Below are positions 38 to 56,674 of a DNA stretch of 64,000 bases, piece after piece (the first letter of the stretch is position 1; every line of letters starts with the position of its first letter). The position numbers were made by a program, and so were the translations under genes. Source of the stretch: Chitinophagaceae bacterium UBA7600. Its GTDB lineage: Bacteria; Bacteroidota; Bacteroidia; Chitinophagales; Chitinophagaceae. Below the pieces are notes generated by a model. The model saw only the letters and a program-made list of their open reading frames with translations, was not told the origin of the DNA and did no database searches. The stretch covers positions 1 through 64,000 of the forward strand of contig DLKC01000089.1 of NCBI GenBank assembly GCA_002478885.1, given 5' to 3'.

Positions 38-229
38 CATTTGTGGTTCCGAGAGCGACAGCGATTCGGGATGTCACTCACTTCAACGTTCTGAACATCT
101 TTGACCAGATGTGCTACGTGAAATAATCTCAAGTTTGTCGTCACATATCTGTCGAATAATTATTCAACTGTACAAGAGTGCGACGCAAACACAGTTTCAT
201 CGATGCACCATAGCCGGGTCCATAAAAAA
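38..229 (+). repeat. Paired intergenic repeat (S arm reverse, A arm forward), reference copy
   Basis: Best reference copy of the window-wide repeat family. The forward A arm (170-229) starts GTACAAGAGTGCGACGCAA, has a variable middle, and ends in a tail like AAGCCGGGTNCCAAAAAA. The reverse arm (about 38-96) carries the S core, seen on this strand as GTCACTCACTTCAACGTTC. The arms face each other head to head around a roughly 73-nt spacer, so both A-rich tails point outward. The A arm ends at 229 and the stop codon of the SGNH gene begins at 230. The spacer resembles that of the copy at 10690-10880. Nothing else is seen in 1-229. Confidence 0.85.
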
Positions 230-889
230 CTATTTCATCAGCACGGGCTCAATTTCCTTCTTCCATATTGCGTAGCCCTGCGCATTCATGTGCAGGCTGT
301 CCTCAATAAAAATGCCGGGTAAAGGTAGCCCGTCAGCCCCGAGCATTTTATGATAAACATCAATAAACATGGCGTTCTTTTGATTGTTTATATAAGCGCT
401 TATTAATTTATTGGCGGCGGTAACCCTGTCCTGCATTTTCCACCTTGAAGGGCTTGGCTTAAGTGATATAAAAACAACTTTTGTTTTTGGCAGGTTTGTC
501 CTGATCATGCCGAACAATTGCTTGAATCGTTCAAAGACTATCTGCGCCGTTACTGTGTCTGATGATGCCACATCGTTTTCGCCACAATAGATCACTATTT
601 CCTTTGGCTGGTAAGGATAAATAACCTGGCCGGCATAGCGGATCACATCGGGCAAGGTTGATCCACCGAACCCGCGGTTAATGATCGTGTAGCCGGGAAA
701 ATAATCCTGTACATCTGTCCATTTTGTAAAGGACGAACTGCCCACGAAAAGTATCGCATGTTTTGGTGGAAACTTTAGCGCGTCAGCTTTTTTAAATGCA
801 GCAATATCTTCTGCAAAAGGTTGTGCATTGCAGATGCCGGCAAAGCAAGCGATAACAAGCAGGACACTCAACAATTTTGCACTTTTCAT
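230..889 (-). CDS. Secreted SGNH/GDSL-family hydrolase
   Basis: A 219-aa esterase-like protein. Residues 1-22 form a signal peptide ending near CNAQ, so it is exported. SGNH blocks are visible: GSSS around residues 50-53 (nucleophile Ser), GFGGS at 73-77 (oxyanion Gly), GEND at 103-106 (Asn) and DSLH at 197-200 (Asp/His dyad). The family hydrolyses esters of lipids or of acetylated sugars; the substrate cannot be read from the sequence. It is the last gene of a tight operon: its start is 2 bp past the stop of the DoxX-like gene, which itself overlaps the MBL hydrolase gene. The stop codon abuts the repeat at 170-229. Confidence 0.85.
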   Translation of the reverse strand: MKSAKLLSVLLVIACFAGICNAQPFAEDIAAFKKADALKFPPKHAILFVGSSSFTKWTDVQDYFPGYTIINRGFGGSTLPDVIRYAGQVIYPYQPKEIVIYCGENDVASSDTVTAQIVFERFKQLFGMIRTNLPKTKVVFISLKPSPSRWKMQDRVTAANKLISAYINNQKNAMFIDVYHKMLGADGLPLPGIFIEDSLHMNAQGYAIWKKEIEPVLMK

Positions 890-891
890 AA

Positions 892-1308
892 TTACCTGTT
901 TTTAAAGAGCGGCGAATCAAGGTTCCATTTTCCGGGCCCGGTGAAAAATAATAACGCAGCCATCAGCACAAACATAAAAGGATGTTGCGCGTCGTACCAA
1001 ATTTTTCCATTACCTACAAAGAAGGTTATATAAAACATATCAACGCCCAAGATTATACAAGCGAGTCTTGTAAATAAGCCTGTGAACAGCAATAAGCCGC
1101 CGATAAACTCGGCACTTTTCCCCATGTATACCAGGAGTTTTCCATTTGGCAAATTTTTGAACATGTCCCATTCAAGGTAGTGCTGGATTGTTTGCGAAGA
1201 AAAAATTTCGGCTCCATGATAGATCATAAACGCCCCGGTGATTATGCGGGCTACAGCAATGGCTTCTGCCTGGCAGAATGGCTTGTTTGAAAAAAGGGTG
1301 TTAAACAT
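892..1308 (-). CDS. DoxX-family integral membrane protein
   Basis: A 138-aa hydrophobic protein with about four membrane segments. It has the DoxX-type N-terminal block (ARIITGAFMIYHGAE), the central GLLLFTGLFTRLAC helix and the C-terminal TGPGKWNLD motif that closes many DoxX proteins. DoxX-like proteins are small inner-membrane proteins linked to redox or thiol stress in some bacteria; the exact role here is unknown. Its first 8 bp overlap the end of the MBL-fold hydrolase gene and the SGNH hydrolase follows 2 bp later, so the three genes are very probably co-transcribed and translationally coupled. Confidence 0.8.
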   Translation of the reverse strand: MFNTLFSNKPFCQAEAIAVARIITGAFMIYHGAEIFSSQTIQHYLEWDMFKNLPNGKLLVYMGKSAEFIGGLLLFTGLFTRLACIILGVDMFYITFFVGNGKIWYDAQHPFMFVLMAALLFFTGPGKWNLDSPLFKNR

Positions 1309-2170: not shown

Positions 2171-2203
2171 CGTTAATGGTTAATGATGAAAAGTGAACAT
2201 ACA

Positions 2204-2267
2204 GTACAAGTGTGCGACGCAAGCAAAGTTTAATAGTTGTTTTCAAAAGCCCGGCTTACAAATTTTT
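2204..2267 (+). repeat. Single A-arm repeat overlapping a stop codon
   Basis: Head GTACAAGTGTGCGACGCAAG from 2204; tail AAGCCCGGCTTACAAATTTT at the right. The tail runs across the end of the MetE-like gene: the last codons (Lys-Asn-Leu-stop, 2256-2267) lie inside repeat sequence, so the stop codon itself is part of the element. No reverse arm is seen next to it. Confidence 0.8.
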
Positions 2268-3284
2268 CCTTACTTGCTTTGCACCCTTCACCATGTTAAT
2301 GAGTTTTTGCCGCGATGCCCAACGGGCAGTTTGGCTAAGGCCACAGTCAGGAGCTACAGATAATTTTTCTGCAGGAATATATTGCAGGCAACGTTTAATT
2401 CTTTCCACAACGTCATTCACCGATTCGATGTAATAGTTTTTTACGTCGATGATTCCGACAGCCACATGCATTTTTTCAGCGAATACCTGCAGTAATTCCA
2501 TTTCAGCAAACTCGCGGTTGGCCATTTCAATGTGAATCTCATCGACAGACAAATCAAGAAAATCCGGAAGCATTGGCTTAATACTTCTATAACCAACAGG
2601 CCTTCCTTTGAAATTCCCAAAACATAAATGTGTACTCAGGTTACATTTCCCCACGATGGGCTTTACCGTTCGGTTGAAAATATCGACGAATCGCTTTGTA
2701 TCTTCCTTATATGCATAACAACTCATCGATGGTTCATCGACAGTGATTTCTGTACAGCCCGCAGCCACAAGGTCTTCCAGCTCTTTACGCACCATCGGCA
2801 GCAACGCTTCGGTTATAGCATAACGGTCTTTATATTTTTCGTTGGGTAACAACCTTCCGCTAAGCGTATACGGGCCGGGCACACTCGCTTTTAACGTTGG
2901 ACCTGCGGGCGCTAGCTTTTGTAATCGCTGAAACTCTTTTACTGCACCGAGGCCGGCTGGTGCAGTTAATTCGCCAACAATATTATTTTTTCCGCGTTGA
3001 TCATGTGCAGGCGGGCCAAACTTTCGTGTTTCCGTTTCGTTGTTCTGGATGCCTTTGATATAACCATAGAACGACAAATTAAAATCAAGACGTGTTTGCT
3101 CACCATCGGTAATTACATCGAGGCCAGCCGTAACCTGGTCATGAATCGCAGCGATCACGGCATCTTCGATCATTTCCTCAATATCGGCAGCACCAAACTG
3201 GTTAAGGTTTTTTGAACCAAATTCGAGCCAGCCCGGGAAAGGATAACTACCTACAACTGTTGTACGAATCGGGATATTTTGCAT
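2256..3284 (-). CDS. Core-MetE-like cobalamin-independent methionine synthase family protein
   Basis: A 342-aa protein matching only the C-terminal (catalytic) half of MetE. The N-terminal block RTTVVGSYPFPGW is the typical start of this domain, and the zinc ligands are recognisable: His and Cys in STHLCFGN (about 221-228), a Glu in IHIEMANRE, and Cys in PDCGLSQTA near residue 315. MetE itself is about 750 aa and uses methyltetrahydrofolate polyglutamate. Single-domain relatives transfer methyl groups to homocysteine from other donors, sometimes with a partner protein; no obvious partner is adjacent. The start is the ATG at 3284. The 3' end lies inside a repeat. Confidence 0.85.
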   Translation of the reverse strand: MQNIPIRTTVVGSYPFPGWLEFGSKNLNQFGAADIEEMIEDAVIAAIHDQVTAGLDVITDGEQTRLDFNLSFYGYIKGIQNNETETRKFGPPAHDQRGKNNIVGELTAPAGLGAVKEFQRLQKLAPAGPTLKASVPGPYTLSGRLLPNEKYKDRYAITEALLPMVRKELEDLVAAGCTEITVDEPSMSCYAYKEDTKRFVDIFNRTVKPIVGKCNLSTHLCFGNFKGRPVGYRSIKPMLPDFLDLSVDEIHIEMANREFAEMELLQVFAEKMHVAVGIIDVKNYYIESVNDVVERIKRCLQYIPAEKLSVAPDCGLSQTARWASRQKLINMVKGAKQVRKNL

Positions 3285-3290
3285 CGTTGG

Positions 3291-3351
3291 AAATTTTATA
3301 GTTCAAGCTTTAGTAATACTAATCAACTTCGTTGTTTCACTCACTTGTGCG
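3291..3351 (-). repeat. Single S-arm repeat, reverse
   Basis: Read on the minus strand it gives GCACAAGTGAGTGAAACAAC followed by a tail AAAGCTTGAACTATAAAATT. It fills nearly the whole gap between the SIS-domain gene (ends 3365) and the MetE-like gene (starts 3284). Its A-rich tail is only 6 bp from the MetE-like ATG, so this copy lies in a 5' untranslated position. Confidence 0.7.
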
Positions 3352-3364
3352 CTTCGTTCGCTAT

Positions 3365-4144
3365 TCATCCTCCTACATTCTCGTATAATTTTGCCAGCCT
3401 GTGTGCATGCTCATCGTAAGCACTTTCAAAAAGTGTGGTTGCTCTTTCGCTTCCAACTATAGCACCAGCGGTTAGCACTTTTGGCGGGTGGCCTGCAGCA
3501 GTAAGCAGGTTCGCCACTTCGGCCTTTATGCAATTCACAATCATTGCACCGCCGACTGTTGACCCGGGTGATACAGGCGTATCCAAACCTGGCAAATAAA
3601 TCATAGCGTCACCAACCGGGGCACCGGTATCTAAAATAAGATCTGAAAAATCACCTAGTTTTTTGCCGTCACTTCTTTTACTGGTTGATTTTTCAGAATG
3701 CTCTTTTGTGATAATGGACACCACTCTGATTTTTCTCTGCTGAAACAATTCCGCCATTTCTATTGGCACAATATTGCAGCCACTCGAAGAAATGATCAGC
3801 GCAGTATCTGTATCATTCAGACCGTAGTTTCGCAGTATTCTATCGGCAAGGCCGCTGACATTCTCGAGGAACATTGCCTGTCTTTGCCCATTGGCGCCAA
3901 CGACGAGATTGTGAAACGTGAGTGATAATTCAACAATTGGATTAAAGCCGGGAAACGACCCGTAACGTGGCCACATTTCTTCAACCATAATGCGGCTGTG
4001 GCCGCTGCCAAACACGTGCACCATTCTGCCTGCAAGAATGGTTTGTACAAACCATTCCGCAGCTTGTTTAATTTGCTGTTGCTGTGCATTGACCTTTTCG
4101 ATAATGGCACTGCATTTTTGTAAGTATGTTTCGGTTAAGTTCAT
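3365..4144 (-). CDS. SIS-domain protein, UPF0309-type sugar isomerase
   Basis: A 259-aa protein with one SIS (sugar isomerase) domain, a phosphosugar-binding Rossmann-like fold. Visible blocks: VFGSGHSR at residues 44-51 (phosphate loop), IISSSGCN at about 117-124 and the APVGDA region before the C-terminal helices. This is the UPF0309 subgroup, related to GmhA and MurQ-type SIS proteins. It lies next to a ROK sugar kinase transcribed in the same direction (gap 166 bp), so the pair may handle a phosphorylated sugar or amino sugar. The precise substrate is unknown. Confidence 0.8.
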   Translation of the reverse strand: MNLTETYLQKCSAIIEKVNAQQQQIKQAAEWFVQTILAGRMVHVFGSGHSRIMVEEMWPRYGSFPGFNPIVELSLTFHNLVVGANGQRQAMFLENVSGLADRILRNYGLNDTDTALIISSSGCNIVPIEMAELFQQRKIRVVSIITKEHSEKSTSKRSDGKKLGDFSDLILDTGAPVGDAMIYLPGLDTPVSPGSTVGGAMIVNCIKAEVANLLTAAGHPPKVLTAGAIVGSERATTLFESAYDEHAHRLAKLYENVGG

Positions 4145-4253
4145 CTTGTTATCTATATTACCGTAAAATTAATTTCAATCCTGAGACGTCACCAGTAAGA
4201 CGTAAAATAATTCCAATACTTAAGCCTCAGGCCTGACAAATATTTGTTTCCAA

Positions 4254-4310
4254 GCACAAGAGTGCGAAGCAACAGCAGCTTATGCATGCAACTGGCCTGG
4301 CGCCAAACAC
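4254..4310 (+). repeat. Single A-arm repeat abutting ROK stop codon
   Basis: Slightly decayed head GCACAAGAGTGCGAAGCAAC and tail TGGCCTGGCGCCAAACAC. It ends at 4310 and the ROK kinase stop codon begins at 4311, so no untranslated spacer remains between gene and repeat. Confidence 0.75.
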
Positions 4311-6072: not shown

Positions 6073-6128
6073 GCTATAGGTAATGCGGCAGTTTATAATT
6101 AGTGCATCTTGCTCAGCAAAGGAAAAAG

Positions 6129-6190
6129 CGTTGAAGAGTGCGACGCAACAATGTTGAATATCTATCCTAAGCCCGGCTAAAAAAAAATTC
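6129..6190 (+). repeat. Single A-arm repeat abutting Gfo/Idh stop codon
   Basis: Head CGTTGAAGAGTGCGACGCAA, tail AAGCCCGGCTAAAAAAAAAT. It ends directly before the stop codon at 6191. The head uses the GTTGAAG variant instead of GTACAAG, also seen at 22676 and 55408. Confidence 0.8.
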
Positions 6191-7357
6191 TTACAGCATT
6201 GGCCATTTGAATGTTGACTGCAGTTTTATTTTCATGCCTGTTGCGGATGATTTTCTTGCAGCTTCAATGATTTCGAGCACATGCAAAGCATGCTCCACAT
6301 TAATACGCGGCTCTATGCCTTTGACCATGCTTTCACCAACGACCCTCGCCCCTTCCTGCCATTCGTAACCACCCTTATCTGTGCAGAGCAGTTGCGGAGG
6401 TTGTATCGATACGGTGTCAAGCACTACGCCATTAGTCTCCCAGTCGTAGCCAAGCAGGCGCATATTCCCTTCCGTGCCAAATAACTGGATAGAATGCAGC
6501 GAGGTAGTGCCGGCTTCATGGCCGTGTGTATCAAAAAAGTTAAATCCGCACATTACATGGCTGATAATATTTTTATCGTGTTCCAAAAGCAAATGCGCAT
6601 TGTCTTCTGCTTCCACTTTTATTTTTCCTTTGTCATCAACGGTACGTTCGGCAGTTACAATACTTGTCATGGCCATTACCGATTTTGCGGGGCCAAGCAG
6701 GCCTGTTAGCGTAGCCATATTATAAACGCCAAGATCGGGCATGCTGCCACCTCCTTTCTCGTAAAAGAAAGCACTCCATATCGGTCCTGTGTGGCCATAC
6801 TGTCCATGAGCGCTCGAAATGCGGCCAAGCTTTCCCTCTTGTATTGTTTTGCTCATGAAGGCAAACTGCGGGCTATTTACAACAGCAGGTGCGCCCCATA
6901 AACGCAGGCCTTTGCTTTTTGCAAGATCAAGCAGGGCTTTGCCTTCCGCATAAGTGTTAGCCATGGGCTTTTCGCTCCACACATGTTTGCCTGCGGTTAT
7001 AGCGATCTTGTTTAAAGTGCCATGCATTTGCATATCAGTGAGTGTGACCATCATGTCGAACGGAACACCAGCAAGCATTTTTTCGATGTGTGGGTATGTT
7101 TCAGCATTTACATTGTATTGTTTGTTTTGAGCAATAGCCCGATCATATTTTATGTCGCACAAGCTTACTACTTGTATAAGCTGTGACGAAAGGAGTTGTG
7201 GAAGGTAACGATTGCTTACACTTCCGCAGCCAATGATTGCAACCCGCAATCTGTTAGTGGGCATTTCTTTCGCAAAACTTTCAAGAGAGGAAAGTAATGC
7301 TGCTGCACCGGCTGCTGCAGTTTGCTGCAGGAATTGTGCGCGGGAAATATTATTCAT
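6191..7357 (-). CDS. Gfo/Idh/MocA-family oxidoreductase with N-terminal export-like signal
   Basis: A 388-aa NAD(P)-dependent oxidoreductase. I chose the ATG at 7357 over an in-frame TTG at 7366. The N-terminus has SRAQFLQ followed by an Ala-rich helix, resembling the S/T-R-R-x-F-L Tat signals of this phylum but with only one Arg, so Tat export is uncertain. The Rossmann motif is IIGCGSVSNRY (about residues 42-52), followed by the family's EKPMAN catalytic-lysine block and a C-terminal GFO_IDH_MocA_C-like domain. Members act on sugars, inositols or bile-salt-like substrates. It sits downstream of the GH144 genes, consistent with processing of released sugars, but the substrate is unknown. Confidence 0.85.
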   Translation of the reverse strand: MNNISRAQFLQQTAAAGAAALLSSLESFAKEMPTNRLRVAIIGCGSVSNRYLPQLLSSQLIQVVSLCDIKYDRAIAQNKQYNVNAETYPHIEKMLAGVPFDMMVTLTDMQMHGTLNKIAITAGKHVWSEKPMANTYAEGKALLDLAKSKGLRLWGAPAVVNSPQFAFMSKTIQEGKLGRISSAHGQYGHTGPIWSAFFYEKGGGSMPDLGVYNMATLTGLLGPAKSVMAMTSIVTAERTVDDKGKIKVEAEDNAHLLLEHDKNIISHVMCGFNFFDTHGHEAGTTSLHSIQLFGTEGNMRLLGYDWETNGVVLDTVSIQPPQLLCTDKGGYEWQEGARVVGESMVKGIEPRINVEHALHVLEIIEAARKSSATGMKIKLQSTFKWPML

Positions 7358-7406: not shown

Positions 7407-7548
7407 ACTTTAAACCGGTTTTAGAATAAACATAAAATAAAACATCGTTGCGTCGCACTCTTCAGCGGTTTTAACTTTACGCAGCACAATGCCGGCCTTT
7501 TATTCTTTCACTCATGCAATATTCATTTAATGAGCCGGGTTAAAGTAT
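7407..7548. repeat. Repeat pair: A arm reverse plus decayed forward arm
   Basis: The reverse A arm (7407-7466) reads on the minus strand CTGAAGAGTGCGACGCAAC with a tail AAAACCGGTTTAAAGTA. A decayed forward arm follows (about 7505-7548): its head is poor (TTTCACTCATGCAATA) but its tail AGCCGGGTTAAAGT is clear. The tail is about 10 bp from the stop codon of the first GH144 gene (7558). Confidence 0.65.
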
Positions 7549-8982: not shown

Positions 8983-8990
8983 GATAGTAT

Positions 8991-9170
8991 ATTTTTCAGG
9001 GTACAGGCTTTCGATCATTATGGCATCGCCTGTTGCGTCGCATTCCATTCATCGTTCCGGGGTTCTGTTGAGCATGGTACATCACTTTTACTGATGCCTC
9101 TTGTTATGCAGTTAAAGTGCTTGCGACGCAACGAAGCTGCCATGAAATGCTGCAGCCAGTATCTTTATTT
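8991..9170. repeat. Repeat pair: two A-type arms head to head
   Basis: The reverse arm (8991-9060) belongs to a variant reading GAACGATGAATGGAATGCG then ACGCAACAGGCGATGCC on the minus strand; the same variant occurs at 39217-39281 and, more loosely, at 36754-36817. The forward arm (9110-9170) has GTGCTTGCGACGCAACGAAG and tail GCAGCCAGTATCTTTATT. The pair occupies most of the gap between the first and second GH144 genes, and the reverse tail is 8 bp from the ATG of the first. Confidence 0.7.
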
Positions 9171-10627: not shown

Positions 10628-10689
10628 GGCAGATATGTTCGTTAATAATTGACTTATTCTTTTGTTACCAGCTTCCGTGCTTATCGCAT

Positions 10690-10880
10690 CGGCTGCTGTG
10701 CTATAGTGCCGGCTGTCCGGCATCACTCACTTCATCACCGGGAACAAACTTGACCAGGTCGTAAGACGTGAGATAGTCTTCTGTTGATGTTGCACGCCTG
10801 GCGAATATTGATTCAATCGTATAAGTGCGCGACGCAAGTAAAGCCTTATCTATAAATCACAGACCGGTTCACAATGATTT
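10690..10880 (+). repeat. Long repeat pair (S reverse, A forward) with conserved spacer
   Basis: The reverse S arm (about 10690-10745) reads GAAGTGAGTGATGCCGGAC on the minus strand and is diverged. The forward A arm (10819-10880) starts GTATAAGTGCGCGACGCAAG with tail AGACCGGTTCACAATG. The spacer between them shares blocks in order with the spacer at 97-169, including CTTGACCAG, ACGTGAGATAGTCT, CGAATAT and ATTCAA. The A tail ends 4 bp from the stop codon of the gene at 10885. Confidence 0.75.
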
Positions 10881-12882: not shown

Positions 12883-12928
12883 AGCATAGCAACTGGCAAA
12901 TAATGACCGCCCAATTTTTTGGTTTTAA

Positions 12929-13080
12929 ATTTTTGGTTACAAGCTTAATCCCTTCGTGGCATCGCCTGTTGTGTCACTCACTTTGAGGTTCTGAACATCA
13001 GTCGACCGTTGACAGAAAGTACAAGAGTGCGACGCAAGTAAAGCTTGTTTTTTGCGTTAAAGCCGGGTTAACTATTTTTC
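12929..13080 (+). repeat. Compact repeat pair (S reverse, A forward)
   Basis: The reverse S arm (12929-12996) reads on the minus strand AAGTGAGTGACACAACAGGC followed by GATGCCACGAAG, then tail AAGCTTGTAACCAAAAATTT. The forward A arm (13019-13080) reads GTACAAGAGTGCGACGCAAG with tail AAAGCCGGGTTAACTATTTT. The spacer is only about 22 nt, making this the shortest complete pair. The A tail ends 4 bp from the stop codon at 13085. Confidence 0.85.
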
Positions 13081-13084
13081 TTCT

Positions 13085-17721: not shown

Positions 17722-17957
17722 TTTGTTTTTCTGTTAGCCCAACATTTGTTTTTCATAGCGTCGCCTGTTGCGTCGCACACTTCGGCTGCTGAAGCTTTAT
17801 GCTAAAGCAGTCTTTGCGTTCTGTTTGTCAATCGTCAATGGTGAATCGTAAACAGAAACTAAATAAATTATTCAGCATTGCCCATTCACCATTCACCTGT
17901 ACAAGTGAGTGACACAACCAAAGCCCAATACTTATTCTGTAGCCGGTTTCAAAAAAA
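17722..17957 (+). repeat. Repeat pair in inverted class order (A reverse, S forward)
   Basis: The reverse arm (17722-17794) is class A (GAAGTGTGCGACGCAACAGG on the minus strand, tail GGGCTAACAGAAAAACAAAT). The forward arm (17899-17957) is class S (GTACAAGTGAGTGACACAAC, tail AGCCGGTTTCAAAAAAACAA). This is the only pair with the classes swapped. The about 104-nt spacer contains its own inverted motif (TCAATGGTGAATCG and CCCATTCACCATTCACC). The S tail overlaps the last codons of the VCBS gene (17932 onward), so its final residues KPATE and the stop are encoded by the repeat. Confidence 0.8.
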
Positions 17958-20900
17958 CAATTCCTTTGTTGTTTCTCGCGATCGCCATTATCTTCCCTTT
18001 GGCGGTGTTTATCCATTTTGCATCACGCACTTCGCCATCGATGGCGGGCAGTGAAACAGGATGGTCAAACCGGGCCGCGTTTTTGTTATATGTTGCAAGC
18101 GTTGGCAGCAAAGCATCGTAGCGGCCTTCGTAGGGAACAACCCCGTAGAAATTACCAGTTGCCATAAATGCCGTTTGCTGGTTTTGCTGTACCGAAGTAA
18201 AATTAAAAACTGGTGCAAACTGCATTTCGTCAGGCAGATCGGTTCTTGTAAAATTTCCCTTGCCATCGTTAATGAAACAAGATGAACTAAGTGTCTCTGC
18301 TTTGTACTCACGGTAACCTTTGAACAAGTCGTAAAACATATACTGTACATTTTTGCCTGCTACTTCACTGTAAGCCAGATACGCTTTTTTTAAAACAGGT
18401 AAAGAACGTTCGAGTTCGTCTTTAGCGAGAAAAGTATATTCTTCTCCATTAACAGTATAGCAAACAACCTGTTCAATGGACCCATTGCCATCGAAGTCTT
18501 TTACATACATTTTTACTGGGCCATTCTTGCCCGACCAGAATTTATTGTTATGCCCCCAGTTGCCAGCAAGAATATCAGTGAAACCATCGCCATTAACATC
18601 GGCTGTATAAACGGACTGCCACAATCCGGTTGATGCATTAAGATCGGAAGCGGTGAATTTGCCTTTGTTGTTTATGAAGATCTTAACGGGCATCCACTCG
18701 CCTGCTACAATAAGATCGGCCCAGCCATCATTGTTTATATCGGCAAAGGAAGAAGTTGTTACAATGCCGGTTGAATCAAGTGCGATGGTATTGTGGTCGG
18801 CTTTTCTGAAATTGCCTTTACCATCGTTGAGCAATAAATAAGATGGTTGAAGTATGCCATAGCTTTTTGAACCGGCGAGGCCACCAACGAAAAGATCGTT
18901 GTCGCCATCTTTATCAACATCGGCAATAGACACGGTTGACTTGTTGGTATAAATGACAGGCAACGCAGTTGCGGAGATATTGAAGTGGCCTTTACCGTCG
19001 TTAAGAAACAAACGATCGCCGAGCAAGGCGTTGCCGTCTTCGTATTCGTTGCCACCACTCACCACATAAAGATCGGGGTAGCCATCGTTGTTAGCGTCGA
19101 AGAATGTTGCGTCCAGATCTTCCCACGCTGCATAGCGATTGAAGAGCGCAGTATCTGATGGAGCAAAAGAACCGTTGGCCTGTTGAATCATCAGTGCGCC
19201 AGGTTGCAGCCTTGCGCCGCACACATAAAAATCGTCGAGCCCATCTTTATTCACATCGCCAACAGCCAATTTTGGACCTCGTGTACTTTGCTCATGCGGT
19301 ATCAGGTATTGCACATTAAAATCGACAAAATCATCTTCTTTATGTTTCCAGTTGCAATTGACCTCGGATGTAATGTCTTGAAACAATACTTGCTTTTTCG
19401 GAAAGAAGGAGTAATAGTCGAAAGTGCCAGAAGCATTTTTCTGATCAAATGTTATTAGTGCACGGCCGTTAACAGGAACATTTCTCAAAAGCTGATATCG
19501 CTGATTAGGCCAAACCACCAAAATACTGTCAACAGAAGCAAGAGTATCTAAACCAAAATTTAGTTTAAGATCTGAGGAAGACATAAAGCCTCTTGTTGGC
19601 ATCAACTGCTGGTATTGCAAGCCATTTCTTGTAAACAAATAGGCCTTGGCGCCGACGCCAAAAATATTGGTGCTATCGCTGTGAAAAGAAATGGAGGCTG
19701 TATGCTTCTTTGGTGCGTTATTCTTTAAAATAACTGCAGGAGCATTCAGGCAATTGATAATAAGGTCCGGATTGCCATCGGCGTCAAGATCGGCATAGGC
19801 TGCGCCATTGAAATACCCTTTAAGTTTTGCCGTGCCCCAATCCTCGCTAACATCCCTGAACGATAATTTTCCATCGCCTTTAAACAGAAAAGGATGCGAT
19901 GAGCCATCCGGCATTGCATTAATGGCGTCCTCATCATATTTATCTGTTTTATCCATGCCTTTATTCTTAAGATCTGAGGCAAACCTTATGTAATCGAGAT
20001 CCACCGGGCGCTTAACAATGCCACTTGAAATAAAAAGGTCTTTTTTACCATCGTTGTCAAAGTCAGCAAACAGTGGTGACCAACTCCAGTCTGTTGCAGC
20101 CATACCGCTTTGCAAACTTGTTTCACTGAAGCTTGCGCCATCGCCGTTGTTGCGCTGTAAACAATTTTTAGAGTATTGGTATTGATAACCGTTGATCTCG
20201 AGTTTTACTTTATAGATGTCGGGGTTTTCATCGCTGCCGTAAGTTTTTAAAACTTTTTCATCGGGCGGAAGCATATCAACAGTAACTACATCAGGTTGCC
20301 CGTCGTTGTTATAATCTGCCACATCGTTACCCATACTGAAGCGGCTATAATGTTTAAAGTGTTGAGCCCCGCTTTCAGTAAATGTTCCATCGCCATTGTT
20401 GATATAGTAATAGTCATTTTCGTGAAAGTCGTTGCCGATATATATATCATCCCACCCGTCGTTATTCATATCGGCAACTGCAATACCCAACCCATAGCCA
20501 AGATTGCTTTGAAAGATGCCTGTTTGTTTCGAAACATCAGTGAAATGCGCCACCCCCTTTTTCCCATTCATAATTAGGTCATTGCGGTAAAACCTGTCGC
20601 CCGATAAGCTATCAAAACTTCTCCTGTGGGCAGTATCCGCAATGTTTGCATGCGGGTGATGCGATTGGTTTAGAATGTAACAATCAAGGTCGCCGTCGTG
20701 ATCATAATCAAAAAATGCCGTTTGCGTGGTGAAGCCGGAAAAATCCAAACCATATGCACCGGCGCTTTCAGTGAATGTTCCATTTTTATTGTTGAGGAAT
20801 AATTCATTGTGCCCTTTAAGATCATACTTGCCCGCAACTGCTGAAACATATAAATCAAGATAGCCGTCATTGTTTACATCTGCCATGGTTACGCCGGTAC

Positions 20901-22539: not shown

Positions 22540-22738
22540 TTCTTTTATGCAGGCAGTAATACATGTGGCATCGCCGGTTGTGTCACTCACTTGTACGCTC
22601 AGCTATTTAATCATCAATCGAGAACACACTGGCTGCTCAATCGCAACCAGGTTCGCCATTGACCATTCATAGCTCAACGCTGAAGTGTGCGACGCAACGA
22701 AAGCCTGAAATTGTTCTACAGCCCGGCTCCAAAAAATT
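22540..22738 (+). repeat. Repeat pair (S reverse, A forward)
   Basis: The reverse S arm (22540-22602) reads GTACAAGTGAGTGACACAAC then CGGCGATGCC on the minus strand. The forward A arm (22676-22738) is CGCTGAAGTGTGCGACGCAA with tail AGCCCGGCTCCAAAAAATTA. The spacer of about 73 nt contains GCCATTGACCATTCAT, similar to the spacer motif at 17880-17895. Together with the terminator that follows it fills the 320-bp gap between the cytochrome and LamG genes. Confidence 0.85.
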
Positions 22739-22767
22739 ATTTTCCAAAGACCAATGCTGTGAAATTT

Positions 22768-29069: not shown

Positions 29070-29211
29070 TGATGAATATTTATCAGCTTCCGGTATCCGA
29101 AATCAACATATATGTCATGTTGTAGTTTACCACCAACTGCCAGTAGTGACACAATCCCGCACTTACGGGAATGCCTCTTCCACAAAAGCCTTTACCAAAG
29201 AACTCTATTTA

Positions 29212-33527: not shown

Positions 33528-33541
33528 TCATTTTTCAGCAA

Positions 33542-34063
33542 ATGCCCAATCTTCAAACAATAAACATAGCGAGCATATGGCGCATGCTTGAAGCGGTGAC
33601 CGACCCGGAAATACCGGTTTTATCTGTGGTGGACATGGGCATTATACGCGCTGTACGTATTGATGAAACCGGTTTGCCCAACAGACCTGCAGTGGAAATT
33701 ACCATTACGCCAACTTATACCGGCTGCCCCGCCATGGATGTTATCAACACCAGCATAAGACTTGCCCTGATTGAAGGTGGCATTACAAAACACCAAATAA
33801 AAACCGTGTTATACCCTGCATGGTCAACCGACTGGATAACGGAGAGTGGCAAACAAAAACTAAAAGCGTATGGTATTGCACCTCCGCAGGCGAAGAGTAC
33901 CGCACCTACTATGAATCTTACAGAAGCGGAAGAAACAATACAATGCCCCCAATGCAATTCAACCGATACAAAACTCATTAGCAGGTTTGGCTCAACTGCC
34001 TGCAAGGCCCTTTACCAATGCCAGGATTGCAAAGAACCTTTCGATTACTTCAAATGCCATTGA
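33542..34063 (+). CDS. paaD: Phenylacetate degradation protein PaaD (MIP18/DUF59 type)
   Basis: A 173-aa protein. I start it at the ATG 33542; an upstream in-frame GTG/ATG-like extension would only translate the preceding repeat. The N-terminal MIP18/DUF59 domain shows LEAVTDPEIPVLSVVDMGI and TPTYTGCPAMDVI; the C-terminal zinc ribbon has CPQC and CQDCKEPFDYFKC. PaaD is thought to help mature the iron-sulfur or di-iron centres of the epoxidase. It is bracketed by an S arm (33464-33527) and an A arm (34106-34162). paaE, the reductase, is not downstream. Confidence 0.93.
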   Translation: MPNLQTINIASIWRMLEAVTDPEIPVLSVVDMGIIRAVRIDETGLPNRPAVEITITPTYTGCPAMDVINTSIRLALIEGGITKHQIKTVLYPAWSTDWITESGKQKLKAYGIAPPQAKSTAPTMNLTEAEETIQCPQCNSTDTKLISRFGSTACKALYQCQDCKEPFDYFKCH

Positions 34064-34105
34064 TACGTTAATCACGTTGCCTTTTCTGCTGCAAAATATT
34101 CTGCG

Positions 34106-34162
34106 GTACAAGCGTGCGACGCAACGAAGCCCAGGATTGTTGCTCAGCTGTGGTCCAAAAAA
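34106..34162 (+). repeat. Single A-arm repeat downstream of paaD
   Basis: Head GTACAAGCGTGCGACGCAAC and tail AGCTGTGGTCCAAAAAACCC. It lies 42 bp after the paaD stop and 126 bp before the AraC-type gene. With the S arm before paaD it makes an S-gene-A arrangement. Confidence 0.8.
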
Positions 34163-36691: not shown

Positions 36692-36753
36692 ATGTTACGT
36701 AGCTGTTACCGCAAGATTAAGGGATTATGAAAGCGTGTAGCCGAACAAAGAAC

Positions 36754-36817
36754 GGGACGATGAACGGATTGCGACGCAACGATGCTCCATTATTGCTCAG
36801 AAGCCGGTATCAAAGTC
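36754..36817 (+). repeat. Variant A-arm repeat between phosphoesterase and E2 genes
   Basis: It reads GACGATGAACGGATTGCG then ACGCAACGATGCTCC and tail AGAAGCCGGTATCAAAG. The GATGAACGGA head is shared with 39217-39281 and the reverse arm at 8991-9060, defining a subfamily. It sits beyond the E2 gene's own terminator, on the far side from the stop codon. Confidence 0.7.
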
Positions 36818-38501: not shown

Positions 38502-38528
38502 TGTATCTCTCGATTTTAAGTTCAATAT

Positions 38529-38585
38529 ATTTTTGGGCCCGGCTGCAATCTTGGTGGCGTCGGTTGTTGCGTCGCACACTTGTAC
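38529..38585 (-). repeat. Single A-arm repeat upstream of the E2 gene
   Basis: On the minus strand: GTACAAGTGTGCGACGCAAC then AACCGACGCC and tail AGCCGGGCCCAAAAATATAT. The tail is 28 bp before the E2 ATG, so the arm lies in the leader or promoter region of this housekeeping gene. Confidence 0.8.
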
Positions 38586-38735
38586 AGTATAACGCTTTGC
38601 AGCATTTTTTGGAGCCGTGAAATTACAGTAAAATGCAATAGCAGCAACTTAAGGCTATCTTTTTTGTAAAGAAGGCCTGTGACCAATATCATCGTTTTCG
38701 TAAAGCCGTTTTTTTAACTTAACAAAAACAATTAT

Positions 38736-39216: not shown

Positions 39217-39281
39217 GAACGATGAACGGAATGCGACGCAACAGGTGATGCCATGTTTGCTACGGCTGGTATCCCAAAAAT
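39217..39281 (+). repeat. Variant A-arm repeat abutting dnaX stop codon
   Basis: It reads GAACGATGAACGGAATGCG then ACGCAACAGGTGATGCC and tail ACGGCTGGTATCCCAAAAAT. It ends at the base before the dnaX stop codon (39282). Its nearest relative in the window is the reverse arm at 8991-9060. Confidence 0.8.
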
Positions 39282-41117
39282 TTACTTGTAGTCGATCTCC
39301 AACCTGAGTTTATCTTTCAACTCTCTTACAAGGGGGTATTTTTCAGCAATCCGGTCGAAACGTTCCCGGCTATTCAAAGCCAAATGAGGTGGCAGGGTTT
39401 CTTTTTCAGCTTCTGTCACTAACACTTTAAACGAAATGCTCCTGTTATTGAATGCCTGCTGAATAAAATCGGCGAGCATCATTTTTTCCTGTTCGATAAA
39501 ACGTTGTTGCGTAATGGCATTTACGGTAACCGTGAAAAAGTTTTCGGCTTCGATCGACAGTTTGGCGAGTTTAAAACTGTTGGCAGATGAGTGCTTCTGC
39601 TGCTCATCCATTTTATCTGCATATTGCAGCCATAACAATTTCAGCTTTTCCATGACGAGTGCCTCAGCCTCTTTTACCTCCTCAATATGATATTCCGGGC
39701 TGTATTTCTGCCGAAGGCCATCGAGTAAACTTGTTTTACTTTTTATGCCCGGGGCAGGGGCAGGCATTTTTATTACCGGCGTTTCGATCACCAGCTTTTG
39801 TGCCGGCTCTATTTTTCCGGGCACATGTTGCGGAAATGCGGGAATTGTTTTTGCCGGCGCCGCATTTTCCTGTACATAAAGTTTTGCTGCAGGCGTTTCT
39901 GTTTTCGTTACAGTGGCGGGTGGCTTTGCAGCAAGCGGATTTATAGTTTTTACCCTATAGGCGACAGGACCATCAACCCGCTTTTTTTTTACAACGGTTC
40001 CTCCGTCCATGGAAAGTTCTATAGCCTGTTGCAAAAAATTGAGTTTGATGAGCGTCATTTCTACCTGGAGCCTTTTATTACGGGCCATCCGGTAGTTGAT
40101 TTCTGACTCGCTGATAAGGTTAAGCGCACTAACCAGGTAAGACAAGCCTGTTTTGGTGGCAACCTCGTTATACTTGCTTTGCATGCCCTCAACAATATCG
40201 AGCAGGCTTAGCGCTTTAGGATCTTTACAAACCAAAAGATTGCGTATAAATTCGGCGAAGCCGTTCAGCACCATATCGCCCTCGAACCCTTTTTTGTTAA
40301 TCTCGTCGTAGAGCAACATTGCCCCGGCAAGATCCTGCTGTTGCAAAAGGTCGAGCAGTTTGAAATAATAGTCATGATCAAGCACATTCAAATGCTCAAG
40401 CGTGTTCTGATAGGTTACGGTGCCATTGGTAAAGCTTACGATCTTATCAAGGATGCTCAATGCATCACGCATACAGCCTTCACTTTTTTGAGCAATTACC
40501 TGTAATGCGGCTTTCTCGGTTTTTATATCTTCTTTTTGGGTAATGTCTTCCAGGTGTTCGACGGTATCGTTGTTGGTAATACGTTTGAAATCGAAGATCT
40601 GGCAGCGGCTTAAGATGGTTGGCAGAATCTTGTGTTTTTCTGTAGTTGCCAAAATAAAGATGGCATAAGACGGAGGTTCTTCCAGCGTTTTCAGAAAAGC
40701 GTTGAAGGCGCTTGCGCTAAGCATGTGCACCTCATCCACAATATATACTTTGTATTTACCGGCCTGTGGGGCAAAACGCACCTGCTCAACCAGTGCCCTT
40801 ATATCGTCGACCGAGTTATTACTTGCGGCATCAAGTTCATGTATATTTAAAGATGCGCCGCTGTTAAAACTCTTACAGCTGGCGCAGGTATCACAAGCTT
40901 CACCATCCGGCTGCAGGTTTTCGCAGTTGATGGTTTTTGCAAGAATACGTGCACAGGTTGTTTTTCCAACTCCACGCGGACCGCAAAATAAAAATGCATG
41001 TGCAAGCTGGTTATTTTTGATAGCGTTCTTTAAAGTGGTGGTAATATGCGATTGTCCCACGACTGTGTCGAAGGTTTGGGGCCTGTATTTCCTGGCAGAA
41101 ACAATGAACTTGTCCAT
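39282..41117 (-). CDS. dnaX: DNA polymerase III subunit gamma/tau
   Basis: A 611-aa clamp-loader subunit. I start it at the ATG 41117 (MDKFIVSARKYRPQTFDTVV); an ATG 12 bp upstream is possible. AAA+ motifs: Walker A GPRGVGKTTCAR (about 46-57), zinc ligands CENLQPDGEACDTCASC, Walker B-like VYIVDEVHMLS, and sensor motif ATTEKHKILPTILSRCQ. The C-terminal 200 residues are the variable, Pro/Lys-rich tau-like region. No obvious slippery A-run frameshift site for a shorter gamma form was noticed. Single gene; its 3' end abuts a repeat. Confidence 0.95.
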   Translation of the reverse strand: MDKFIVSARKYRPQTFDTVVGQSHITTTLKNAIKNNQLAHAFLFCGPRGVGKTTCARILAKTINCENLQPDGEACDTCASCKSFNSGASLNIHELDAASNNSVDDIRALVEQVRFAPQAGKYKVYIVDEVHMLSASAFNAFLKTLEEPPSYAIFILATTEKHKILPTILSRCQIFDFKRITNNDTVEHLEDITQKEDIKTEKAALQVIAQKSEGCMRDALSILDKIVSFTNGTVTYQNTLEHLNVLDHDYYFKLLDLLQQQDLAGAMLLYDEINKKGFEGDMVLNGFAEFIRNLLVCKDPKALSLLDIVEGMQSKYNEVATKTGLSYLVSALNLISESEINYRMARNKRLQVEMTLIKLNFLQQAIELSMDGGTVVKKKRVDGPVAYRVKTINPLAAKPPATVTKTETPAAKLYVQENAAPAKTIPAFPQHVPGKIEPAQKLVIETPVIKMPAPAPGIKSKTSLLDGLRQKYSPEYHIEEVKEAEALVMEKLKLLWLQYADKMDEQQKHSSANSFKLAKLSIEAENFFTVTVNAITQQRFIEQEKMMLADFIQQAFNNRSISFKVLVTEAEKETLPPHLALNSRERFDRIAEKYPLVRELKDKLRLEIDYK

Positions 41118-42298: not shown

Positions 42299-42365
42299 TT
42301 TTTTCCTGTCCCGGCGGCAGTCTTCGTGGCATCTTCGTTGTGTCACTCCCTTGATCGCCCGGAAC
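42299..42365 (-). repeat. Single S-arm repeat abutting LuxR-type gene stop
   Basis: On the minus strand: GATCAAGGGAGTGACACAAC then GAAGATGCCACGAAG and tail CCGCCGGGACAGGAAAAA. It begins at the first base after the stop codon of a plus-strand gene and so shows the stop-adjacent placement also for plus-strand genes. Confidence 0.75.
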
Positions 42366-42421
42366 TTTGCCGGGCCAGATGAACTATTTGTTTTCTACTA
42401 CGAAGTAGCGGTAAATATATT

Positions 42422-45171: not shown

Positions 45172-45258
45172 GGGCTTTCCAGTTGTTTTAGTTCAGGTTG
45201 TTTCTTACCAACGCATATTCCGGCGGCAGCGTAAAACATTTGCCGCACAAAGTGCTTA

Positions 45259-45319
45259 AGTAAAAGTGTGCGACGCAAGAAAAGCCGATGCCTGTACTGC
45301 AGCCGGGCTCCTGATTTTC
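45259..45319 (+). repeat. Single A-arm repeat in the divergent promoter region
   Basis: AGTAAAAGTGTGCGACGCAA then GAAAAGCC and tail AGCCGGGCTCCTGATTTT. It lies in the 303-bp region between the histidine kinase start (45171) and the CsgG-like gene (45475). I see no other feature there. Confidence 0.75.
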
Positions 45320-49007: not shown

Positions 49008-49018
49008 ATTTTATAAAA

Positions 49019-49213
49019 AATTATGTAGCCAGCTATTGTTCGCGTAGCGTCTTCGTTGTGTCACTCACTTGTACAGCAGAATATAATCAGCCGTCGACTA
49101 TTTATGTAATAGTGCTGCAGAACGGTATGGGGTATACGGTGTAATCCAGAACCATTTCTATCGGTACTGGTGCAACAGCAGCTACTCGAAATAAAGCTAG
49201 GCTCCAAAAATTA
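49019..49213 (+). repeat. Repeat pair (S reverse, decayed forward)
   Basis: The reverse S arm (49019-49074) reads GTACAAGTGAGTGACACAAC then GAAGACGC and tail AGCTGGCTACATAATTT on the minus strand. The forward arm (49163-49213) is decayed at its head but has a clear tail AAAGCTAGGCTCCAAAAATT. The tail overlaps the paaZ stop codon (49211-49213). Confidence 0.7.
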
Positions 49214-52556: not shown

Positions 52557-52732
52557 CTTTTTGACACCAGCCTTATCTTTTTTTATGGCATCACTGATGC
52601 CAAGCCCGGTTCTCCGTTCCTGTTTTCATGGCAACAATTTAGCTTGTTGGGCAGCTGAAATTTTTGTTGCTGCACAAGAGTGCGACGCAAGAAAAGCTTA
52701 ATGCTTATTCTAAAGCCGGGTTCATAAACAGC
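52557..52732 (+). repeat. Repeat pair: decayed reverse arm and clear A arm
   Basis: The forward A arm (52672-52732) reads GCACAAGAGTGCGACGCAAG then AAAAGC and tail AAAGCCGGGTTCATAAACAG. A decayed reverse arm (about 52557-52610) has a tail AAGGCTGGTGTCAAAAAG on the minus strand and a small hairpin GGCATCA/TGATGCC; it begins just 7 bp after the FabH stop. The A tail is about 20 bp from the stop of the PAP2-like gene. Confidence 0.6.
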
Positions 52733-55106: not shown

Positions 55107-55391
55107 ATGAAGAAGATTTGTTTGTTTGTGAATTTATTGCTAATTGTCGGCATTTCTGTGTCAGCACAGGCAAGCAAAGATTCACTTCAAAAAACATTTA
55201 TTCAACCAAAAGATACTCTAAAAACATTTAACCTGCGGGTATTATCTTCCAACTATTACAGCAATAACCTGGGCTTCTTTTGTAAAAAGGAACTACAGTT
55301 GGAAAAGGCAGTAAAGTTCCCTTTGAAATTCAGGCTTGGCAGTGTTGCCTATTGCGACGCTATAGAGGGGAAGAGTGGCCAGCATCCCTGA
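55107..55391 (+). CDS. Small secreted protein of unknown function
   Basis: A 94-aa protein with a signal peptide (about 1-22, ending VSAQ). The mature part has the segment NLGFFCKKELQLEKAVKFPL then FRLGS and a final CDAIEGK, which looks like a recurring short family in related genomes (from memory, not searched). The role is unknown. The gene lies on the opposite strand from its neighbours, with no clear ribosome site. Its last codons run toward the repeat at 55408. Confidence 0.6.
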   Translation: MKKICLFVNLLLIVGISVSAQASKDSLQKTFIQPKDTLKTFNLRVLSSNYYSNNLGFFCKKELQLEKAVKFPLKFRLGSVAYCDAIEGKSGQHP

Positions 55392-55407
55392 CCAGCATGG
55401 TACAAGG

Positions 55408-55465
55408 CGTTGAAGTGTGCGACGCAAGAGATGATGCCAAACGCAGCAAAGCCGGGCTTCAAATA
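55408..55465 (+). repeat. Single A-arm repeat abutting purM stop
   Basis: CGTTGAAGTGTGCGACGCAA then GAGATGATGCC and tail AAAGCCGGGCTTCAAATA. It ends at the base before the purM stop codon (55466). Confidence 0.8.
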
Positions 55466-56674
55466 TTAATACAACACTTCGTTCCCGTTTATAGTAAGCG
55501 CCAATTCTTTTTTGCCCGAGGTTTCCACATGTCCTATGATCTTTGCTTCTATCTGCAGATCGTTCGCCACAGTTATCATGTCAAGCGCTGTTGCCTCGGT
55601 GGTAAAGATTTCGAGCCTGTGGCCCATATTAAAAACCTGGTACATTTCCCGCAGGTCGGCGCCTGAGTTTTGCTGGATAAGTTTAAATATAAACGGAGGT
55701 TCAAATAAATTATTTTTCACAACGCGCATTGGTGCCGGAAGGTATTTCATGCACTTGGTTTGCCCGCCGCCGCTGCAATGGATTACGCCGTCGATACTTT
55801 CGAAAAATTCTTTCAGCAGAATGCTCATCAGCGGTGCATAAGTGCGTGTTGGACTAAGCAGCAGTTTACCGATATGCGTGATTCCAACGCCTTCCAGTTC
55901 TACTTCATCGGTCATTTTATTTTTGCCGATATAGACCACATCGTCGCTCAGGCTTGCTTCGAATGTTTCCGGATATTTTTCTGCATAATATTTAGAAAGC
56001 ACATCGTGCCTTGCGCTGGTAAGCCCGTTGCTGCCGAGCCCGCTATTATAACTTTGCTCATAAGCGGCGCGGCCGGCGCTTGCAAAACCCACGATCACAT
56101 TGCCGGGTTTAATGTTGTTGTTGGTAATAATCCTGTTCTTAGGCCAGCGCGCCGTCATGGTACCGTTAACCGCTATGGTGCGCACCACGTCGCCCACATC
56201 GGCCGTTTCGCCACCGAGAAAGTGAATATGCGTGCCATGGTTTTTGAGCGTATCGAAAAATTCCTGCGTGCCGTTGATCACCTGCTCCAGCACCTCGCCG
56301 GGAATCAATTTTTTATTCCGGTCGATGGTGGAAGAGAATAAGATATTATCGCAAACACCCACGCAAAGCAGGTCATCGAGGTTCATGGCAACAGCATCCT
56401 GGGCAATGCCTTTCCAAACCGAAACATCGCCGGTCTCTTTCCAGTACAGGTAGGCAAGAATACTTTTGGTGCCCGCGCCATCGGCATGCATAATATTAAT
56501 AAAGTCGCTGTCGCCGCCGATAAAATCGGGATACATTTTACAAAAGGCATTTGCATACAAACCCTGGTCGAGATTTTTTATTGCCGCATGCACTTCTTCT
56601 TTTTGTGCAGATACACCTCTTTTGCTGTACAGGCCCCCCTCTGCTACAGGCGAATATTTAATAGCGTGATTCAT
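55466..56674 (-). CDS. purM: Phosphoribosylformylglycinamidine cyclo-ligase (AIR synthase)
   Basis: A 402-aa purine biosynthesis enzyme (AIRS). Bacteroidota versions are longer than the about 345-aa E. coli enzyme, as here. Motifs: YSPVAEGGLYSKRG at the start, FINIMHADGAGTKSILAYLY, MNLDDLLCVG, FLGGETADVGDVVRT, VIHCSGGGQTK and GHRLEIFT. It closes the imidazole ring of aminoimidazole ribonucleotide using ATP. Single gene; upstream gap holds the repeat at 56722-56784. Confidence 0.93.
   Translation of the reverse strand: MNHAIKYSPVAEGGLYSKRGVSAQKEEVHAAIKNLDQGLYANAFCKMYPDFIGGDSDFINIMHADGAGTKSILAYLYWKETGDVSVWKGIAQDAVAMNLDDLLCVGVCDNILFSSTIDRNKKLIPGEVLEQVINGTQEFFDTLKNHGTHIHFLGGETADVGDVVRTIAVNGTMTARWPKNRIITNNNIKPGNVIVGFASAGRAAYEQSYNSGLGSNGLTSARHDVLSKYYAEKYPETFEASLSDDVVYIGKNKMTDEVELEGVGITHIGKLLLSPTRTYAPLMSILLKEFFESIDGVIHCSGGGQTKCMKYLPAPMRVVKNNLFEPPFIFKLIQQNSGADLREMYQVFNMGHRLEIFTTEATALDMITVANDLQIEAKIIGHVETSGKKELALTINGNEVLY

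Follow-up and report, generated by a model that had tools for sequence, protein, structure and literature searches.

The stretch of DNA analysed here, a 64-kb window comprising bases 1-64000 of contig C63 (DLKC01000089.1) in the 5.47-Mb, 105-contig genome of Chitinophagaceae bacterium UBA7600 (source genome, G000), carries many copies of an intergenic repeat unit of about 85 bp found in Chitinophagaceae, and raises the question of why the A-rich end of this element, its tail, so often lies directly against the stop codon of the adjacent gene. In an initial annotation of the window, this precision was attributed either to insertion targeting translation termination sites or to selection of the tail as a 3' end. 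The observation was found to be sound and wider than the window alone could show, and the interpretation half right. The tail often abuts a stop codon or the U-tract of an intrinsic terminator, a placement far more exact than chance; the explanation tentatively favoured here is that of an element of mobile origin, probably bound by a protein, whose close fit to gene 3' ends is maintained by selection.

Placement of the element relative to stop codons

A nucleotide profile of the element detected 617 copies in a sample of the source genome consisting of stretches totalling 1.567 Mb, in which 1,241 genes were called by script, and extrapolation from this sample gives a whole-genome copy number of about 2,150. 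Genes were called with our own hexamer script, not Prodigal, with exact stops and approximate starts, and the cross-genome comparisons cover part of each genome (a sample of 120 kb for G075). Tails facing a stop codon were located 0-9 nt from it in 137 of 338 cases in the source genome and in 70 of 152 cases in G073, a genome of another genus, compared with 15 of 299 and 3 of 125 heads respectively. In an alignment-free measurement with exact-core copies, the core centre was located 40-54 nt from the stop for 119 of 260 copies on the tail side vs 22 of 231 on the head side in the source genome, and for 72 of 141 vs 4 of 118 in G073. The same asymmetry was observed at 38-55 nt in UBA4407 (17/40 vs 2/34, Fisher p 0.0004), and was not significant at that distance in GL140_2 (4/12 vs 2/13), Segetibacter (1/4 vs 0/2), 37 further loci (9/23 vs 3/22) and another 30 loci, one of them from the source genome (1/11 vs 0/18).

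The tail-to-stop distances were then compared with a chance model in which single copies are placed uniformly in their own intergenic region, a copy being flush at -6 to 9 nt. In the source genome, 36 of 68 tails were flush at convergent ends (22.6 +/- 3.1 expected; 8 heads) and 63 of 132 between co-directional genes (27.1 +/- 4.1 expected; 5 heads), while in G073 the corresponding values were 23 of 42 (9.6 expected) and 39 of 71 (9.5 expected), with one flush head in each class. Random intergenic placement, already judged insufficient from the window, therefore falls short of the number of flush tails in both genomes. The peak predicted at the stop is present in these two genomes and absent from G075, in whose 120 kb the test was not significant (5 of 13, 4.1 expected; 4 of 14, 2.7 expected). 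Precise one-sided placement which recurs in other genera thus requires more than random intergenic insertion. At convergent pairs, both tails were flush in 6 of 26 cases in the source genome (5.5 expected) and in 1 of 8 in G073 (2.0 expected), implying that each tail is placed independently, which speaks against flush copies merely filling tight gaps; among the eight head-to-head pairs of G073, examples of the two tail distances are (3, 53), (43, 1), (48, 2), (50, 4) and (61, 1) nt.

The shape of the distribution bears on a rival explanation, namely insertion directed to gene 3' ends, whereby the tail would be joined where transcripts or translation end (U-tracts, stops), possibly through an RNA-end- or transcription-coupled reaction, and would be flush from birth. 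Three results favour it: the distances fall in two states separated by a gap (none of the 152 tails of G073 at 10-14 nt and two at 15-19 nt), flushness shows no trend against profile score, used as a stand-in for age, and the precision is one-sided, the head-side spacer being untrimmed. On the other hand, a plain DNA target hardly marks a stop codon as such, so that directed insertion would need coupling to transcription or translation, and we know of no machinery for insertion coupled to gene 3' ends. This explanation is considered possible, if doubtful.

Copies in the window

The profile found 30 copies in the window, of which 16 have their tail facing a stop codon, at distances of 3, -7, 1, 6, 87, 9, 9, -24, 94, 0, 59, 2, 4, 81, 24 and 0 nt, and 14 have it facing a start codon. 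Ten of the 16 tails are at -7 to 9 nt and six at 0 to 4 nt. The copies, with profile E-values, are the following; gene names used for the window are those of the initial annotation, taken over as they stand.

147..234, plus strand: copy, tail 3 nt from the stop of minus-strand gene 230-889 (E=2e-14)
2182..2270, plus strand: copy, tail overrunning the stop of minus-strand gene 2256-3284 by 7 nt (E=1e-12)
3290..3368, minus strand: copy, tail towards a start, 10 nt (E=5e-6)
4244..4307, plus strand: copy, tail 1 nt from the stop of minus-strand gene 4311-5210 (E=1e-5)
6108..6191, plus strand: copy, tail 6 nt from the stop of minus-strand gene 6191-7357 (E=3e-12)
7442..7487, minus strand: copy, tail towards a start, 52 nt (E=5e-8)
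8989..9042, minus strand: weak copy overlapping called gene 7558-9048 (E=5e-5)
9088..9162, plus strand: copy, tail 87 nt from a stop (E=5e-10)
10798..10880, plus strand: copy, tail 9 nt from the stop of minus-strand gene 10885-12882 (E=4e-8)
12927..13006, minus strand: head-to-head pair member, tail towards a start, 47 nt (E=7e-8)
13000..13081, plus strand: head-to-head pair member, tail 9 nt from the stop of minus-strand gene 13085-14662 (E=4e-11)
17732..17802, minus strand: head-to-head pair member, tail towards a start, 29 nt (E=8e-9)
17878..17961, plus strand: head-to-head pair member, tail 24 nt inside the end of minus-strand gene 17932-21231 (E=2e-11)
22541..22620, minus strand: head-to-head pair member, tail towards a start, 31 nt (E=2e-10)
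22674..22743, plus strand: head-to-head pair member, tail 94 nt from a stop (E=1e-13)
29014..29087, minus strand: copy, tail towards a start, 224 nt (E=2e-11)
33460..33542, minus strand: copy, tail 0 nt from the stop of plus-strand gene 32660-33463 (E=9e-12)
34082..34162, plus strand: copy, tail towards a start, 177 nt (E=1e-10)
36738..36814, plus strand: copy, tail 59 nt from the stop of minus-strand gene 36876-38579 (E=2e-6)
38524..38604, minus strand: copy overlapping the called start of open reading frame (ORF) 36876-38579, a start probably placed too far upstream (E=2e-14)
39232..39285, plus strand: copy, tail 2 nt from the stop of minus-strand gene 39282-41117 (E=4e-6)
42307..42375, minus strand: copy, tail 4 nt from the stop of plus-strand gene 41567-42298 (E=7e-5)
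45239..45319, plus strand: copy in a divergent gap, tail towards a start, 183 nt (E=2e-14)
49014..49091, minus strand: copy, tail 81 nt from the stop of plus-strand gene 47676-48938 (E=5e-10)
49165..49210 (start approximate), plus strand: degenerate copy flush with the stop of minus-strand gene 49211-51259, tail kept and core decayed (by eye, below the profile)
52652..52732, plus strand: copy, tail 24 nt from the stop of minus-strand gene 52753-53415 (E=4e-15)
55388..55468, plus strand: copy, tail 0 nt from the stop of minus-strand gene 55466-56674 (E=4e-10)
56721..56784, minus strand: copy, tail towards a start, 46 nt (E=5e-6)
58968..59053, minus strand: copy in a divergent gap, tail towards a start, 122 nt (E=1e-11)
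60168..60246, plus strand: copy, tail towards a start, 40 nt (E=4e-12)
63853..63935, plus strand: copy, tail towards a start, 47 nt (E=7e-12)

Nine tails had been placed within 4 bp of a stop in the initial annotation; this distance holds for six of them (230, 4311, 39282, 55466, 33463 and 42298), the other three (6191, 10885 and 13085) being at 6-9 nt. The tails described as overlapping gene ends at 2256 (-7 nt) and 17932 (-24 nt) were recovered as such, and at paaZ (49211), where an overlap had also been claimed, the profile misses the copy and the tail-like AAAGCTAGGCTCCAAAAA ends right at the stop. The rule that every gene runs into the tail in the same orientation at its end was retained as a one-sided excess of tails at stops and is otherwise too simple, given the 14 of 30 tails of the window that face starts.

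Two further repeats were observed in genes of the window. ORFs 7558, 9257 and 13085 (window 7558-14758) have common repeated stretches (repeat families D2 and D5) and therefore look paralogous, and a 161-nt stretch at 37981-38501 is repeated at 84% inside ORF 36876-38579, like a duplicated domain.

Anatomy and copy number of the element

The profile consensus (positions 1-85) is TTTTTTTTGCTGAATAATGTTCTGCAGTACAAGTGTGCGACGCAACAGAAGCTGCATAGATGTACTAAAGCCGGGTTCCAAAAAA, in which three boxes succeed each other: a T-run with a GCTG box comes first, the dyad core occupies the centre, and a CCGG box leads into the A-run that constitutes the tail. The conserved parts are TGCTG, the 20-bp core and AGCCGGG..CCAAAAA, and the spacers between them differ from copy to copy in sequence and, by about one base, in length. 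The core exists in two concerted forms, GTACAAGnGTGCGACGCAAC and the alternative GTACAAGTGAGTGACACAAC: columns 33/37 read C/G in 367 cases and T/A in another 100, the next three classes amounting to 4 together, column 31 co-varies with them, and intermediates are rare. Covariation over the columns of 475 aligned copies revealed only this central dyad and no covarying RNA stem. The dyad around a central A is too tight for an RNA stem, which suggests a protein dimer site. No match was obtained in the 64-kb window with Rfam at gathering score. In some copies of the source genome, on contigs C2, C20 and C5, a second small hairpin repeat (around TGCCGGCTTATCCGGCA) has inserted into the core dyad.

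Two other identities of conserved boxes were considered by eye and rejected. A coding core would read VQ(E/V)CDAT in one frame (VSDT in form 2), and is disfavoured because indels occur on both sides and third positions show no freedom; a Bacteroidetes promoter box does not fit the T-run in its spacing.

The 15-base core AAGNGTGCGACGCAA has 1,212 exact matches in the source genome (613 and 599 on the two strands) and none for the reversed control, and 1,419 matches with at most one mismatch (control 2). The second form, AAGNGAGTGACACAA, has 364 exact matches (181 and 183), so that both forms together reach 1,576. Exact cores lay within genes in 13 of 475 cases in the source genome and 5 of 249 in G073. 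Within 250 nt, the first sample of 475 copies contained 93 head-to-head pairs with tails outward, which make long inverted repeats, 3 tail-to-tail pairs and no same-direction pair. Single copies outnumber paired ones (289 of 475), and the idea that they are pairs with a decayed mate has some support in the source genome, where a tail score of at least 5 was reached by 17% of 83 head-side genes and 7% of 226 genes without an element; the corresponding 4% of 67 and 1% of 130 in G073 lend it little.

These numbers recall a DNA uptake sequence (DUS), that is, a mark by which natural transformation would recognise self-DNA, maintained through biased uptake, kept out of genes and frequent behind stops. 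Like the DUS of Neisseria and the uptake signal sequences (USS) of Haemophilus, the element has a short core present on both strands, in nearly equal numbers in the source genome and less evenly in G073 (396/488 for form 1), as well as inverted pairs and dialects, the ratio of form 1 to form 2 being genome-specific (1 vs 35 in G007, 153 vs 9 in G004, 884 vs 720 in G073). Neisserial DUS are likewise mostly intergenic and often paired, according to excerpts of one study (PMC2397512). However, a DUS is a 10-12-bp core scattered singly, genes included, whereas the element is a much longer conserved three-box unit that is gained or lost whole, and only 20 of the 617 profile copies were centred within called genes; moreover, no intrinsic terminator was found at flush copies. 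An uptake role is accordingly judged improbable.

Intrinsic terminators and a second mode of placement

Tails located 15-80 nt past the stop represent a second mode, and in about a quarter of these the T-run of the tail serves as U-tract to a strong intrinsic terminator. For 25% of 121 such tails in the source genome and 24% of 49 in G073, the T-run is touched by a hairpin of at most -10 kcal/mol, as it is for 1% of 170 and 0% of 83 flush tails, 1% of 169 and 1% of 68 start-facing tails, and 0-1% of shuffles. The T-run of the tail thus often adjoins the last functional base, be it that of a stop codon or of a terminator stem.

Flush genes, in turn, have few intrinsic terminators. One was present within 110 nt for 11 of 170 in the source genome (5 when shuffled) and 5 of 83 in G073 (4 when shuffled), compared with 40 of 119 and 49 of 79 element-free convergent genes. 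Terminators displaced past the element were found at 6 of 64 flush convergent genes in the source genome and 6 of 31 in G073 (shuffled 0 and 2). In a small sample of 18 ortholog pairs, none of the flush genes had an intrinsic terminator, against four of their element-free counterparts. This scarcity fits a role of the element at gene ends, and to this extent the proposal of the initial annotation that the tail was selected as a 3' end received support.

That the element would be an ordinary family of intrinsic terminators, as the U-tracts of the second mode might suggest, is very unlikely. Such a terminator consists of a GC-rich hairpin followed by a T-run in the direction of the gene, and at flush genes the T-run precedes any hairpin of the element, terminators are near the shuffled level, copies lie inside the trp/his cluster described below and many tails face starts. 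Group IIC introns insert behind intrinsic terminators; the element differs from them in being far shorter and in lacking an Rfam match in the window, and to our knowledge no stop-codon insertion mode exists for these introns.

Stop codons, empty sites and the trp/his cluster

The stops beside 137 flush tails were TAA in 87 cases, TAG in 29 and TGA in 21, for 63, 20 and 17% in all genes, so that there is no stop codon preference and usage equals that of the genome. Eighteen ortholog pairs were compared in which one gene is flush and the other has no copy within 200 nt of its stop. In 11 pairs the protein alignment extends to the final residue of both, and the remaining seven differ by up to 17 residues, one of them by 91. 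Gene ends being mostly unchanged at empty sites, the stop codon pre-dates the element. A T-run followed the stop at one of four empty sites read by eye, one of the four being trpB of G050; no common DNA motif was seen at the stops and no target duplication was readable. The proposal that insertion targets translation termination sites is thus not borne out, stop usage being that of the genome, tails being flush with terminator U-tracts as well, many tails facing starts and a T-run following the stop at one empty site of four. Stop usage, the lack of a common motif and the lack of a readable target duplication also count against directed insertion in general.

Flush tails also occur inside a cluster ordered trpE-trpG-trpD-trpC-trpF-acetyltransferase-trpB-trpA-hisH-hisA-hisF, whose operon status is deduced from gene order and in which NCBIfam names 10 of 11 genes (trpE, trpF and the acetyltransferase below the model cut-offs), trpC being our own reading. 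They were found at trpE, trpF, trpB and hisA in the source genome and at trpE, trpF and trpB in G073. The trpB gene was matched in 24 of 30 genomes, with a copy flush at its stop in four genera (G000, G073, G039 and G016) and a copy 42 nt from it in G013. In G050, G003 and G001, the trpB end has no profile match and the genes overlap (-4 nt), and several copy-rich genomes also have no copy at the trpB stop. A same-orientation copy precedes trpB in 10 of 24 genomes (weak in the source genome, E 0.008), the identity of the preceding gene being assumed. A tree of TrpB from the 24 genomes was too poorly resolved to separate one origin from several. Other hairpin repeats were observed behind trpB in G042, G074 and G002 (loci L193, L186 and L195), genomes without an element copy there.

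Persistence, mobility and distribution of the element

The source genome and G073 share a median protein identity of 70% (135 orthologs), and among 48 conserved gene pairs some orthologous gaps share copies in the same orientation and other gaps differ. Spacers at 9 shared sites were no more alike than swapped ones (3.7 vs 2.4, sd, or standard deviation, 6.8) and the core form agreed in 5 of 9 (5.7 expected). Between G073 and its congener G075, 8 of 18 conserved gene pairs share elements, 10 are empty in both and none differ, and the core form agreed in 9 of 9 (5.0 expected). Usable shared copies were 9 of 12 and 9 of 11 respectively, the rest having failed a core and length filter that favours core persistence; since detection was required in both genomes, decayed copies are counted as absent, and one such copy is legible between the acetyltransferase gene and trpB. 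Core and orientation thus persist at orthologous sites, and a core that outlasts its surroundings needs selection or renewal.

The element is also inserted and lost as a unit between tightly packed genes: two gaps of 87 and 279 bp with copies in one genome correspond to genes overlapping by 8 nt in the other, and these element-free orthologs are a further point in favour of directed insertion. In this, and as a short non-autonomous repeat of variable copy number between genomes, the element resembles bacterial miniature inverted-repeat transposable elements (MITEs). Unlike these, its core is kept at orthologous sites between genera and target duplication is unseen; no parent transposon was found, Y1 being the only transposase searched for.

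Mobilisation by a Y1 (RAYT) transposase, as in families of repetitive extragenic palindromic (REP) sequences and REPINs, would account for the inverted head-to-head pairs, and three Y1 genes are present in the source genome. In E. coli, as far as excerpts of one paper state (PMC12306157), REPs and bacterial interspersed mosaic elements (BIMEs) likewise form hundreds to thousands of extragenic copies with inverted pairs, a share of them near stops, 446 of 4,072 predicted REPs being within 15 nt of one. The element shares with them the extragenic high copy number and the inverted doublets. In contrast to REP/BIME, it has no covarying stem-loop, no GTAG foot was seen by eye, its unit of about 85 bp holds three boxes, and 40-50% of its stop-facing tails are flush on one side in two genomes. 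A copy (E <= 0.1) was found at 11 of 28 Y1 loci, and on both sides of the gene in at most two; at locus L093 of the source genome the downstream copy adjoins the convergent gene. No Y1 match was obtained in the copy-rich genomes G039 and G067, which makes the REP/RAYT route unlikely, and it is given little credence. Behind the Y1 transposase gene of L093 (2000-2400), a unit of about 100 bp that includes CCTCAGTCTTGCGCTAGCG is repeated in tandem.

Within the family, exact cores range from none to well over a thousand per genus, and profile matches were found in at least 39 of 60 genomes, in a scan which scored at most 76 candidates per genome and whose copy counts are therefore lower bounds. 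The exact core was absent from all 15 genomes of other families searched. Repeat-bearing reference records (best 80 of 113 stretches) were mostly titled as Chitinophagaceae or as one of its genera, among them Lacibacter, Segetibacter and Hydrotalea, and, among the matches listed, other records bear the wider titles Sphingobacteriales, Bacteroidetes and Chitinophagales. No description of the repeat was found in the open-access literature among the matches listed. In G075 (C1:249000-302000), cores recur every 2.6 kb or so, resembling a tandem array of large repeated genes.

The element pattern is also present in eight viral contigs. Viral record L317 encodes NinB, NinG, replication-initiation and primase/helicase genes and has a copy at 4162-4242, indicating that one copy sits in a phage genome; it precedes a same-strand ORF with its tail towards the start, not at a stop. 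L316, L318 and L320 have a copy with a score identical to that of L317, and a BLAST search of one copy against phage and plasmid records gave no matches.

Discussion

Selection on 3'-end spacing is ranked as the likeliest cause of the placement, at a tentative level, and directed insertion as its main rival, with a lower probability. According to the favoured explanation, the element would have spread by self-copying into intergenic DNA, in the manner of REP- or MITE-type repeats, and a putative dimeric protein would bind its core. A copy with its tail against the last functional base could then act as the 3' boundary of that gene; for example, a bound protein acting as a roadblock some 45 nt downstream of the stop might set the RNA end just beyond the last ribosome. 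Selection, through loss of badly spaced copies and deletion of spacer, would sharpen this spacing, and start-facing copies would play no 3'-boundary role.

Several results weigh against this explanation. G075 shows no peak (7 of 25 on the tail side vs 5 of 17 on the head side at 40-54 nt), and 256 of 594 tails in the sample of the source genome face starts, as did 187 of 439 intergenic tails with both neighbours in the first sample; these two results count against directed insertion as well. Convergent ends make up little more of the flush tails than of gene ends at large (64 of 166 and 374 of 1214 respectively in the source genome, 31 of 83 and 222 of 648 in G073), and a strong 3' boundary at the flush copies inside the trp/his cluster would cut the operon, two points on which the idea of a selected 3' end also fell short. 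The terminator deficit is partly built in, because a copy behind a terminator counts as second mode. Spacers keep some likeness between G073 and G075 (5.8 vs 0.3, sd 7.2, 9 sites). Finally, the untrimmed head-side spacer is contrary to the prediction of a general deletion model, and any model of selection must account for tightness on the tail side only.

A bolder form of these ideas, held to be rather unlikely, is that a repeat of mobile descent has turned into a genome-wide protein-bound gene-end mark in Chitinophagaceae, positioned to the base after the stop codon and replacing the terminator at hundreds of genes, RNA and translation ending together, or else that the repeat is copied into DNA at RNA 3' ends. 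If flush copies do end transcripts, a bacterial family would have a second, non-hairpin mode of ending genes, spread by a repeat; if flushness results from insertion, a mobile element would read gene 3' ends, beyond a plain DNA target. On either reading, the repeat provides hundreds of natural replicates, present or absent at orthologous sites.

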